Source: an uncultured Gemmatimonadota bacterium
GTDB lineage: Bacteria; Gemmatimonadota; Gemmatimonadetes; Gemmatimonadales; Gemmatimonadaceae
Direction of reading: 5' to 3'
Assembly (NCBI GenBank): GCA_903900795.1
Contig: CAIUOO010000545.1
Span: 1-38,415, forward strand
DNA: 38,415 nt
This document shows positions 5,277-31,200 of the stretch, piece after piece. Made by a program: the position numbers and the translations under genes. Under the pieces are notes generated by a model that did not search any database, had not been told where the DNA came from, and worked only from the letters and a program-made list of their open reading frames with translations. How positions within the stretch are numbered: the first letter of the stretch is position 1; each line of letters starts with the position of its first letter.

Positions 5277-5369
5277 GATCACGCAGAGTTGGTAGAGAGC
5301 GCAGAGAACGCAGAGGTCATCGTTTGACTCTGCGGCCTCTGCGCTCTCGGCGTCTCCGCGTGATCTTTT
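5277..5369 (+). terminator. CTCTGCG-word palindrome after the M14 gene
   Basis: Nested inverted repeats: GATCACGC (5277-5284) with GCGTGATC (5358-5365); GAGAGCGCAGAG (5295-5306) with CTCTGCGCTCTC (5337-5348), perfect over 12; and GCAGAG (5310-5315) with CTCTGC (5328-5333). Four Ts follow the outer arm. Its place 32 bases after the peptidase stop fits a terminator. The arms are made of degenerate repeats of the word CGCAGAG. Confidence 0.6.
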
Positions 5370-5523
5370 CGCCGAAACAGCGCCCGCACGGAGCCCACGT
5401 GCAGCGGCCCCATTCACGAATGTCACAAGCCGTCGCCGTGAGGTGGATTGTGGATAAAATGGACCTTGTTTCGCGCCGCCCGACATCGTGACACATTCGT
5501 CCAACTTCAACGGATTGCACGGG

Positions 5524-14733: not shown

Positions 14734-14817
14734 CGTGAGTTTCGAGTGCTGAGCGAAAGTGCGGAGTCATGAGGGCACTCACGACTCCCAACTTCCACTC
14801 ACCACTCACAACTCACG
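14734..14817. terminator. 40-nt-arm palindrome between convergent asnS and mazG (ACTCAC type)
   Basis: Arms 14734-14773 and 14778-14817 are complementary at 32 of 40 positions by hand count, with a 4-base loop. The right arm is a run of ACTCAC/ACTCCC-like words, and the right end contains the 12-base perfect palindrome ACTCACGTGAGT. It lies between convergent genes and overlaps the last codons of mazG, so it probably serves as a two-way terminator. No long T-run is seen on either strand. Confidence 0.6.
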
Positions 14818-15585
14818 TGAGTCTTGCCCAACACGCTCGGCACGCTTGACCGCGTCCCAGTACCGGTCCTGGTCCTCCAACGACAGCGCCGTCAGTTCCA
14901 CCCCATCCGCCGTCGCCAGCGCTTCCATCGCGGCGTAGCGCCGCACGAACTTCGCGTTCGTCCGGTCGAGCGCCAGCGCGCCGTGTACACCGGTCTTGCG
15001 CGCCAGGTTCACGACCGCGAACAGCAGATCGCCCAGCTCGGCCTCGAACGCGTCCTGTTCGGCCACGGTACCATCCGCGTTCACGTGCGCGGCCAGTTCG
15101 TCGATCTCCTCGCGCACTTTCTCCAGCGGCCCGAGGGCGTTCGGCCAGTCGAACCCCACCCCCGCCGCGCGGTCCTGCAACCGGTGCGCCCGATGCAGCG
15201 ACGGGAGCCCCGACGGGAGCCCCTCCTCCAGCGTTGAGCGCTTGGCCTTGGCGGCCTTCATCGACTCCCACGGGCGCTTGATCCCGTCGCCGTACAGGTG
15301 CGGATGCCTCGCCTGCATCTTCGCCACCAGCGCGCCCGCCACATCCTGCATCGTGAACGCGCCGCGCTCCTCGGCCACCACCGAGTGGAACAGCACCTGT
15401 AAAAACAGGTCGCCCAGTTCATCGCGCAGCGTGGCGTCGTCCCCCTGCGCGATCGCGTCGTCGACCTCGTGCGCCTCCTCGATGAGATACGGTCGGAGCG
15501 AGCCGTGCGTCTGCACCCGGTCCCAATCGCACCGGGCCCGCAGATCCCGCATCAGGGCCAGCGCGTCGTCCATCGTCCGTTGCAT
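14806..15585 (-). CDS. mazG: Nucleoside triphosphate pyrophosphohydrolase MazG
   Basis: A 259-residue tandem-domain MazG that hydrolyses nucleoside triphosphates to monophosphates and pyrophosphate, cleaning abnormal nucleotides or tuning (p)ppGpp metabolism. The first domain has LRARCDWDRVQTHGSLRPYL, EEAHEVDDAI and DELGDLFLQVLFH, with the EExxE plus ExxD metal site. A second copy has EKVREEIDEL and EAELGDLLFAVVNLAR. I chose ATG 15585 because GGAGA lies 4 bases upstream and family members start near this point; the track start at TTG 15636 would overlap alr. The last codons (DSREL-stop) lie inside the right arm of the 14.8-kb palindrome, so the C-terminus appears rewritten by that repeat. Confidence 0.93.
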   Translation of the reverse strand: MQRTMDDALALMRDLRARCDWDRVQTHGSLRPYLIEEAHEVDDAIAQGDDATLRDELGDLFLQVLFHSVVAEERGAFTMQDVAGALVAKMQARHPHLYGDGIKRPWESMKAAKAKRSTLEEGLPSGLPSLHRAHRLQDRAAGVGFDWPNALGPLEKVREEIDELAAHVNADGTVAEQDAFEAELGDLLFAVVNLARKTGVHGALALDRTNAKFVRRYAAMEALATADGVELTALSLEDQDRYWDAVKRAERVGQDSREL

Positions 15586-26088: not shown

Positions 26089-27684
<1,596 letters not shown>

Positions 27685-27687
27685 AAT

Positions 27688-27822
27688 CGAAAAGCAACAG
27701 CCAGAATACGGATGACACCGACCACACAGCACCAACACGGATAAGCATAAAAATCGCTGTTTGCTTATCCGTGTTGTTGTCCGCGTAATCGGTGCAATCC
27801 GTGTTCTGGCTGTTGCTTTTCG
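27688..27822. repeat. 135-nt nested palindrome (ATCCGTGTT and GCAACAG words)
   Basis: Outer arms of 19 bases are perfect inverted copies (27688-27706 and 27804-27822). Inside are ACGGAT/ATCCGT (27708-27713, 27797-27802), CACCGA/TCGGTG (27716-27721, 27789-27794), and a perfect 15-base stem CAACACGGATAAGCA (27733-27747) with its complement (27762-27776) over a 14-base A/T-rich loop. It starts 3 bases after the mutase stop. It could end transcription, but no T-run follows the outer arm directly. Confidence 0.85.
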
Positions 27823-27869
27823 CTGTTGCTTTTCGCTGTTGCTTTTCGCTGTTGCTTTTCGCTGTTGCT
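27809..27869 (+). repeat. 13-bp tandem repeat, four copies plus a partial
   Basis: GCTGTTGCTTTTC is repeated perfectly at 27809, 27822, 27835 and 27848, with a 9-base fifth copy to 27869. The first copy is also part of the right outer arm of the palindrome, so the tandem looks like slippage expansion of that arm. There are no unique spacers, so it is not CRISPR. Confidence 0.95.
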
Positions 27870-28069
27870 GTCGCCGGTTCTGTATTCGTGACCGCGTAAT
27901 CACCGTCGCCTCCGGCTCGAGCGTGATCGTGACGAACCACCGGGAGCGCGTTACGTTCATACGGATGACTCCAATGAGATGGACCTTCTGAGCCCCGCGA
28001 CCATGCCTCTCGTTTCGAGCCCCCGCAGCACACCGTGTGCCTGGGCCGCGCTCGCCTACTGGCGTGCGC

Positions 28070-29203
28070 ATGGCTGATACGCCGCGGCCGCTGCCGGTGG
28101 TGCGCGCCATGATCGACGCGCTCGATCGGGACCTGTTGCAGATCATGGCGAAGCGCATGGCGCTCGTGGCTGAGGTCGCCGCCTACAAACGTCAGCATGG
28201 GCTCAAAATTCGCGATGCGGGTCGCGAGCGCGAACTGCTGCGTGACCGGCATGAGCGCGCCAGGGAACTTGGCCTGCCCAGCGAGGAGATCGAGTCGATC
28301 TTCCGGCTGCTCATGCGGTCGAGCCGCGATCACCAGGCCGCGCTCCGGGCCGAAGTCCCGATGGACGCCGCCTCCTATACCATCGCCATCATCGGCGGTC
28401 ACGGCCGCATCGGCCGCGTCATGGCGCGGCTCTTCGGCGACTTGGGCCATCGGCTGCTGCTCGTCGACACCGACACCGCGCTGCGCGCCGAGGAAGCCGC
28501 CGCCGTGGCCGATGTCACGATCGTGAGTGTACCGATCGACGCCACCGATGCCGTCATTCGTGCCGTCGGCCCGCACGTGCGCGCCGACGCGCTGCTCATG
28601 GACGTCACCAGCGTGAAGGAAGCGCCCATGCAGGCCATGCTCGAGGCCACCACCGCCAGCGTGGTCGGCACCCACCCGATGTTCGGCCCCAGCGTGCATA
28701 CGCTGCAAGGCCAGCGCATGGTGATCTGTCGTGGTCGCGGTGATGCCTGGGGAGATTGGGTCGCGCAGTCGCTCGCCGCCCGTGGTCTCATGATCACCGA
28801 AACCACGGCAACGCAGCACGATCGGGCCATGTCGGTGGTGCAGGTGCTCACGCATTTTCAGACGCAGGTGCAGGGACTCACGCTCAGCCGCCTCGGGTTA
28901 CCCTTGGCGGAGACGCTGCCGTTCACGTCACCGGCTTACCTGCTGGAGCTGTACGTCGCGGCCCGCCATTTCGCGCAGGATCCGGCCTTGTACGGCTCTA
29001 TCGAGATGCGAAATCCACGCACCGCCGACATCACGTCGGCCTTCGGGCAGTCGGTGCACGACGTCGCTGACATCCTCGCGCGCGGCGATCAGGCGGCGTT
29101 CGCGCGGCTCTTTGCCGACGTGCGTGAGTTCTTCGGCGACTTCACCGCCGAGGCACTCGAGCAGTCCAGCTTTCTCATCGATCGCATCGTGGAGCGCGCC
29201 TGA
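28070..29203 (+). CDS. tyrA: Bifunctional chorismate mutase / prephenate dehydrogenase (T-protein)
   Basis: A 377-residue fusion catalysing chorismate to prephenate to 4-hydroxyphenylpyruvate, the tyrosine branch. Residues about 1-90 form an AroQ chorismate mutase domain (IDALDRDLLQIMAKRMALVAEVAAYKRQHGL, DAGRERELLRD). Residues about 100-377 form the dehydrogenase: nucleotide loop IIGGHGRIGRVMARLF, THPMFGPSV, HFQTQVQGLTLSRLG and SPAYLLELYVAARHFAQDPALYGSIEM. These closely recall the E. coli TyrA segments, and the length (E. coli 373) fits. No ACT domain is seen. ATG 28070 is chosen; no strong ribosome site. The stop overlaps the next gene (TGATG). Fused T-proteins are best known from gamma-proteobacteria, so its presence here is notable. 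Confidence 0.92.
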   Translation: MADTPRPLPVVRAMIDALDRDLLQIMAKRMALVAEVAAYKRQHGLKIRDAGRERELLRDRHERARELGLPSEEIESIFRLLMRSSRDHQAALRAEVPMDAASYTIAIIGGHGRIGRVMARLFGDLGHRLLLVDTDTALRAEEAAAVADVTIVSVPIDATDAVIRAVGPHVRADALLMDVTSVKEAPMQAMLEATTASVVGTHPMFGPSVHTLQGQRMVICRGRGDAWGDWVAQSLAARGLMITETTATQHDRAMSVVQVLTHFQTQVQGLTLSRLGLPLAETLPFTSPAYLLELYVAARHFAQDPALYGSIEMRNPRTADITSAFGQSVHDVADILARGDQAAFARLFADVREFFGDFTAEALEQSSFLIDRIVERA

Positions 29204-30192: not shown

Positions 30193-31062
30193 ATGAGCAA
30201 AACGTCCGTATCCCCGTCGCGCGTCCGACACTATCTCGCCGTGGGCGCGCTCTGGAGTGTCCCCTTCTTCGCGACGAATCTCGGCGCCCAACAACGCACC
30301 ACGGTACTCGATCGCGCCGCGCAAGAACGCGAGCGCGCGGAAGCATCCGCGCGTCGACTCGCCGGTGCTCAGTCGGTCATCGATGGCGTCGTGACCGACA
30401 CGCTGCTGCGTCCACTTGTCAGCGCCGACATCTCGGTGGTGGGCACGTCCGCTCGCGTCGTGACCGGGGACAATGGTCGCTTCCGGATGCTGCAGGTGCC
30501 GCCCGGTCAATACTTGGTGGTGGTCCGACGCATTGGTTACGCGCCGACGTCCGGCATTATCGATGTGCCGGACAAAGACACGTTGCGGCTCTCCTACACG
30601 CTTCTACGCTCCAACAACCTGCTCGACACCGTGCGCGTGCGCAGCAGCCGCGTCACCATGCGCATGCTCGACTTCGAGAGGCGCCGACAGCAGGGGCAGG
30701 GGCAGTTCATCACACAGGAGGAGATCGAGCGGCGCGGGTCGATCCAGACCTCCGACTTCCTGCGCTACATGCGCGGGGTGGAGGTGTCGCAGGTGACAAC
30801 CCAGGCGTTCGCCGGCACCCAGGTCTACTCGCGACGTGAGGCCGGTGGCTTCACCGACTCCCAGCAGCAGCAATCCTGCGCCATGCAGGTCATCCTCGAC
30901 GGCATCATTTTGCCGCGCAACTTCAACCTGGACCTGCTGCCACCACCCAAGCAAATCTCGGGCATTGAGGTGTATTCGGGCGCGGCCACGGTGCCACCGC
31001 AGTTTGGCGGAGTCGACCGACGGTGTGGGGTGGTGGCGTTCTGGACGCGCGACGGATACTGA
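30193..31062 (+). CDS. Secreted TonB plug-domain protein without a beta barrel
   Basis: About 289 residues. A signal peptide (AVGALWSVPFFATNLGAQQ) is followed by a carboxypeptidase-regulatory-like domain (about 60-140: IDGVVTDTLLRPLVSADISVVGT, FRMLQVPPGQYLVVVRRIGY). A TonB-receptor plug-like domain follows (about 170-289: ITQEEIERRGSIQTSDFLRYMRGV, QVILDGIIL, QISGIEVYSGAATVP). The frame then stops, so the roughly 22-strand barrel of a receptor is absent. The end VDRRCGVVAFWTRDGY matches the normal end of a plug, so this looks like a designed stand-alone protein, not a truncation. ATG 30193 fits the signal peptide better than GTG 30163. It converges on the susD-like gene. Role unknown. Confidence 0.8.
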   Translation: MSKTSVSPSRVRHYLAVGALWSVPFFATNLGAQQRTTVLDRAAQERERAEASARRLAGAQSVIDGVVTDTLLRPLVSADISVVGTSARVVTGDNGRFRMLQVPPGQYLVVVRRIGYAPTSGIIDVPDKDTLRLSYTLLRSNNLLDTVRVRSSRVTMRMLDFERRRQQGQGQFITQEEIERRGSIQTSDFLRYMRGVEVSQVTTQAFAGTQVYSRREAGGFTDSQQQQSCAMQVILDGIILPRNFNLDLLPPPKQISGIEVYSGAATVPPQFGGVDRRCGVVAFWTRDGY

Positions 31063-31110
31063 GAGTGGTAGGAGTACGTGGTAAAGAGTACAGGGTAGGG
31101 AGTACTCATC

Positions 31111-31151
31111 ACTCCCAACTTCAACTCAAAACCCACCACTCACGTGAGTCT
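31111..31151. repeat. Second copy of the ACTCAC-word repeat
   Basis: Contains ACTCCCAACTTC (31111-31122) and ACTCACGTGAGTCT (31138-31151), both identical to words at 14784-14795 and 14811-14824. The spacer between the words differs. It lies between convergent genes, as does the first copy. Confidence 0.85.
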
Positions 31152-31200
31152 CGAGTCTTGAGGAGAGAAAGCGCCCCAATCCCCGAGCCACCCACAAAGG

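Follow-up and report, generated by a model that had tools for sequence, protein, structure and literature searches.

A clade-specific family of long intergenic palindromes at gene 3′ ends in Gemmatimonas

The locus

The window, by which we mean the whole stretch of 38,415 nucleotides that was analysed, from an uncultured Gemmatimonadota bacterium, carries a nested imperfect palindrome of 135 nt in the gap between a methylmalonyl-CoA mutase family gene and a co-directional gene of the TyrA type. The palindrome begins 3 nt beyond the TGA stop codon of the mutase gene (27682–27684) and its right arm runs into a 13-bp tandem. The features of the region are:

26089–27684, plus strand: upstream gene, methylmalonyl-CoA mutase family (PF01642)
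27688–27822, no strand: nested imperfect palindrome, a copy of the CACGGAT-word family, with its conserved core at about 27694–27816
27688–27706, no strand: left outer arm, CGAAAAGCAACAGCCAGAA, the perfect complement of 27804–27822
27707–27732, no strand: middle part of the left arm, with the words ACGGAT, CACCGA and CACAG, pairing with 27777–27803
27733–27747, no strand: left arm of the inner 15-bp stem, CAACACGGATAAGCA, the most conserved (apical) word of the family
27748–27761: loop of the inner stem, which differs among family copies
27762–27776, no strand: right arm of the inner 15-bp stem, TGCTTATCCGTGTTG
27804–27822, no strand: right outer arm, TTCTGGCTGTTGCTTTTCG
27809–27869, no strand: 13-bp tandem, GCTGTTGCTTTTC x 4.7, an expansion of the arm-terminal sequence
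28070–29203, plus strand: downstream gene, chorismate mutase/prephenate dehydrogenase (TyrA-type; PF01817, PF02153, PF20463)

The outer arms (19 nt) and the inner stem (15 nt) are both perfect, and between them lie two 6-nt stems, ACGGAT/ATCCGT (27708–27713 paired with 27797–27802) and CACCGA/TCGGTG (27716–27721 paired with 27789–27794). No longer inverted repeat was found in the 38-kb window. Its fold reaches -94.5 kcal/mol on the plus strand (z -10.1) and -102.6 kcal/mol on the minus strand (z -14.1), none of 200 dinucleotide shuffles being as good in either case. TRF reports 4.7 perfect copies of the 13-mer at 27809–27869. Arms, stems, tandem and fold scores on both strands, the check that had been proposed, all agree with the original prediction of a 135-nt nested hairpin joined to a 13-bp tandem, which was exact.

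A repeat family confined to one clade

When the genome of origin was searched with the hairpin, 101 matches at about 45 places were obtained. The element had been singled out as the most elaborate of its set, its membership of a genome-wide family having been overlooked; apart from the unusual length of its tandem, it is typical of that family. What was a single hairpin can now be studied as a repeat family that occupies about 45 places in one genome and orthologous sites in related genomes, and whose function can be tested.

Aligned copies share the core GCAACAGCCAGAACACGGA-...-CAACACGGATAAGC-loop-GCTTATCCGTGTTG-...-TCCGTGTTCTGGCTGTTGC, which in the window copy spans about 120 nt (GCAACAGCC...GGCTGTTGC, approximately 27694–27816); the outermost part of the window palindrome, CGAAAA/TTTTCG, is local and lies outside this core. 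Family palindromes measure about 120–150 nt and their arms are strings of words of about 10 nt (CACGGAT, CACCGAT, CACNGAA). Conservation is highest at both ends and in the apical word, with a variable middle and loop, and the same ends of about 20 nt recur with the apical word at some 45 unlinked places of one genome. Loops reach tens of nucleotides in some copies, and others are widely split or stand inside-out in tandem arrays. Element and gene end have been amplified together in tandem at C451, C82, L115 and site E of G020. At C451 of G000 (L009 1–900) a unit of about 228 bp recurs about four times; it combines the element with what appears by eye to be the tail of an MsrA-like gene. At L115 (3700–5400) there is a seven-fold array of about 254 bp with the arms inside-out.

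Further copies are present in nine related genomes. The family is carried by 10 of the 61 nearest genomes, all of one genus, and across the phylum by 7 of 298 genomes, from 1 of 119 genera. When 85,462 species genomes were scanned for its pattern, the named matches were all Gemmatimonadota MAGs. The genus is Gemmatimonas, a name borne by one member MAG, and the family is confined to one clade within it. No match was found among the plasmid and phage records searched, a literature search with the repeat sequence returned only papers on unrelated subjects, and no paper on Gemmatimonas repeats was found in the literature searched. On the G029 chromosome most copies lie within 3.1–5.2 Mb and few elsewhere; a replichore cause for this uneven spread was considered and dropped, as neither origin nor terminus could be clearly placed from the GC skew sampled.

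This is a dispersed, non-coding, clade-specific palindrome family at gene 3′ ends, and it belongs to the known class of intergenic stem-loop repeats, since a single genome holds multiple similar copies that can form the same stem-loop, placed between genes with a preference for 3′ ends. Like the SLS families, ERIC and similar repeats (PMC2267715, PMC1590033), the copies occupy 3′ ends and convergent gaps; unlike them, they are restricted to a clade, have word-iterated arms and a self-iterating base, and form a sequence family that was not found in the papers open to searching.

Placement at gene ends

Both neighbours are known, from a home-made codon-usage gene caller, for 49 copies, of which 20 lie between convergent genes, 26 between co-directional genes, after the stop codon, and 3 between divergent genes, as against 15%, 48% and 36% of intergenic bases across 400 kb sampled from G029. 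Convergent gaps are enriched (p 1.5e-5) and divergent gaps depleted (p 1.6e-6) in binomial tests that overstate independence, the copies being related by descent. Because some of the loci are orthologous, G000 and G029 were also tested alone, and the direction was unchanged in each (G000: p 0.017 for convergent and 0.0005 for divergent gaps; G029: p 0.0007 and 0.05, respectively). The nearest stop codon is a median of 30 nt away. Among gaps of 60–500 nt in the G029 sample, a fold z below -6 was found in 59% of convergent, 4% of co-directional and 0% of divergent gaps, in agreement with the general 3′-end bias of bacterial stem-loops (PMC1590033). Such a bias could also reflect purging from promoters instead of function.

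Two further families of word palindromes occur in the same genome, unrelated in sequence to the CACGGAT family and alike in placement. One, which consists of CGCAGAG/CTCTGCG words and has outer ends resembling GAACTGATCACGCAGAG, is found at 5278–5372 of the window and at about 20 genome places (7 convergent, 5 co-directional, 1 divergent). The other, with GAGTT/CTCAC words around CTCACGTGAG, is found in the window at 31060–31165 and 14777–14824 and likewise at about 20 places (8 convergent, 4 co-directional, 0 divergent).

Orthologous sites across species

The original prediction had proposed a comparison of orthologous mutase–tyrA gaps, in which unrelated sequence with no palindrome would have counted against function; the comparison did not turn out that way. 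The hairpin occupies this site in five species (G000, G015, G017, G024 and G027), and in two others the palindrome is shorter or altered: G014 retains the outer arms around a shorter, different inner hairpin in which both arms have changed together, and G020 has a longer, altered palindrome. The element is absent from the site in G026 and G021, where short GC-rich terminator-like hairpins were recognised by eye, and no such hairpin was seen where tyrA begins 16–114 nt downstream (e.g. G028, G022, G005 and G009).

At six more sites (A–F), for which the upstream gene ends were followed in 15 genomes, most relatives within the clade have a copy at the same place. The family is mostly old and vertically inherited at given sites, because 31 of 45 copies are nearest to the same-site copy of another species. 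Individual sites nevertheless differ between species. Site A holds the CACGGAT type, with a longer subtype in G024 and G029, a GAGTT/CTCAC-word palindrome in G011 and G014, and other word palindromes in G021, G028 and G016; site D holds a CTTCGCG palindrome in G029 and no palindrome in G024. Collapsed copies that have lost parts of their arms are present at site F (G024, G026) and site B (G015).

Tandems and arms

At the mutase–tyrA site the tandem comprises 4.7 units in the window species versus about 1.6–2 in the four other carriers, where it reads GCTGTTGCTTTTCGCTGTTGC (about 1.6 units) or slightly more. That arm and tandem share sequence, one deriving from the other, had been anticipated; because four orthologues with the same hairpin hold so few units, the window tandem is a late expansion of the arm end, younger than the hairpin, which slippage of the arm-terminal GCTGTTGC unit at the hairpin base would have produced. 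Most family copies (37 of 57) have a flanking tandem of their own, and tandems occur in 43 of 114 flanks versus 11 of 769 control stretches; within the left arm of the G027 mutase-site copy, a 9-nt word is duplicated. Such variable tandems could serve as strain markers for freshwater Gemmatimonas. In flanks without a hexamer tandem, a CGATCTCGC motif stands close outside the arms (12 of 114 flanks versus 0 of 474 controls; L004, L009, L019, L025, L038, L059 and L094) and may mark where the element originally ended.

The two arms change together. Cells in which both arms differ number 66 versus 48.5 in shuffled alignments (a value reached in 1 of 500 shuffles) and 10–18 when the arms are slid, counts that relatedness inflates. 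In transcript orientation 43 G-U pairs and 70 A-C mismatches were counted; since G-U should outnumber A-C under selection on a transcript, and do not, no such selection can be read here. In REPs, by comparison, frequent G-T pairing has been taken to indicate transcription (PMC3733652). Covariation is better explained if one arm is copied from its partner at the DNA level, and template switching during replication would then be the main reason why the arms stay complementary. Template switching at quasipalindromes is a known process (PMC7202029, PMC8604942) in which the arms of an imperfect inverted repeat are likewise made alike by copying; in this natural family, unlike in those studies, it is deduced from comparison only.

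A putative role at transcript ends

We regard the element as a probable bidirectional transcript-end structure, either a degenerate terminator or an exonuclease block, whose arms are templated at the DNA level. Read from either side, it would fold into a single large hairpin whose short tail is weakly rich in U, and this hairpin would terminate the flanking messages or protect their 3′ ends. A 3′-end role is suggested by the location of the copies, by their standing as the lone hairpin in convergent gaps (no other hairpin of at least 8 bp in any of 20 element-bearing gaps), by an excess of T going outward on either side (0.5 over the nearest 4 nt and 0.25–0.42 over the following 12, against a background of 0.19), by the terminator-like hairpins of relatives and by the like placement of two unrelated families. 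Among the three possibilities raised in the original prediction (structured RNA, terminator, small non-autonomous element), a terminator-like role fits the genomic placement best, but the window lacks a canonical T-run after the hairpin, and a terminator scan of 27500–28200 found no canonical intrinsic terminator. TTTT occurs no more than 15 nt away in 13 of 57 right flanks and 15 of 57 left flanks, and a GC-rich stem followed directly by a U-tract is wanting in the window copy and in most others. The element resembles bidirectional intrinsic terminators in being a single hairpin between convergent genes with T enriched outward on both sides, and in standing where relatives have GC-rich hairpins; it differs in mostly lacking a proper U-tract, in a stem that far exceeds the usual terminator length and in forming a dispersed homologous family.

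The main rival is that of a non-autonomous mobile palindrome, MITE- or REPIN-like, for which gene ends are merely harmless insertion spots and which has no role in the host. We consider this reading rather unlikely. In its favour, the repeat is multi-copy, its ends are near-identical and its loops variable, tandem clusters take in flanks (C451, C82, L115) as in REPINs (PMC3116915), and close relatives hold different subfamilies at one site (site A). The earlier suggestion of a small non-autonomous element survives as far as origin is concerned, but neither a partner transposase nor a target-site duplication was found. Direct repeats at the ends show no clear excess (3.64 versus 3.44, sd 0.15), the tandems blurring the ends, and within the loci and transposase types examined, a part of the genomes, no partner transposon sharing the terminal repeats was seen. 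The nearness of most copies to same-site copies elsewhere indicates little recent movement, and plasmid and phage records hold no match. The tests run speak against a RAYT/REPIN product in particular: the PF01797 transposase is absent from the single-contig G029, which has at least 25 copies, and RAYT, where found in element-bearing genomes, is flanked by a different REP. None of 8 RAYT loci has a family copy; C145 of G000 (L109 1170–3220) bears a RAYT-type Y1 transposase gene with its own palindromic flanking repeat, TTCAACGACTCTGACCCCTTGAA. With the REPIN/BIME/RAYT-REP systems (PMC3116915, PMC3733652) the family shares a dispersed extragenic palindrome with conserved ends, a variable spacer and compensatory arm changes, some tandem clusters with flanks, and, in line with reports on REPs, a location mainly in gaps that are convergent or unidirectional; unlike them, it has no RAYT link, no GTAG/CGTC tag recognised by eye, much longer stems, mostly vertical inheritance and flanks that hold expanded terminal units. 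An identity as integron attC sites, suggested by the nested arms and arrays of the family, was rejected on inspection, as the ends misfit the attC core and the genes ahead of the copies are ordinary chromosomal ones.

A purely mutational account, in which gene-end palindromes arise and grow by slippage and template switching where nothing selects against them, is improbable. It would explain the words iterated inside the arms, the symmetric hexamer arrays at flanks, the shortened versions in which both arms change together (G014 mutase site, G015 site B) and the unrelated palindrome families in the same orthologous gaps, but local mutation cannot alone yield the same ends of roughly 20 nt and apical word at about 45 unlinked places of one genome. 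A structured non-coding RNA or riboregulator, as had also been suggested, is very improbable: the fold is highly stable on both strands and its pairs covary, but no Rfam family reaches its gathering score (sub-threshold matches being mostly to eukaryotic microRNA models), a G-U excess is absent, loop length and sequence vary freely and no promoter-like site was found.

Word palindromes at fixed positions

The family offers a view on the rise, shrinkage and replacement of long palindromes at fixed positions, and bears on whether transcript-end structures can swap their whole sequence yet keep position and fold. It is a speculative idea, which we hold to be doubtful, that several unrelated word-palindrome families replace one another at orthologous 3′ sites as renewable, fast-evolving bidirectional transcript ends, kept up by template switching and slippage without a transposase.

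Two observations may be added. At site D (L019, L215, L220) the stretch that separates the element site from the following gene holds a conserved GC-rich hairpin, which reads GGGGTGCAACTTCCGTTGCACCCC in G017. More gene-end families of word palindromes, with CTTCGCG, TTAGCGC, TACTCCGTACTCC and CCTCCTCCC words, occur in the G029 sample (L136, L141, L140, L131 and L127).
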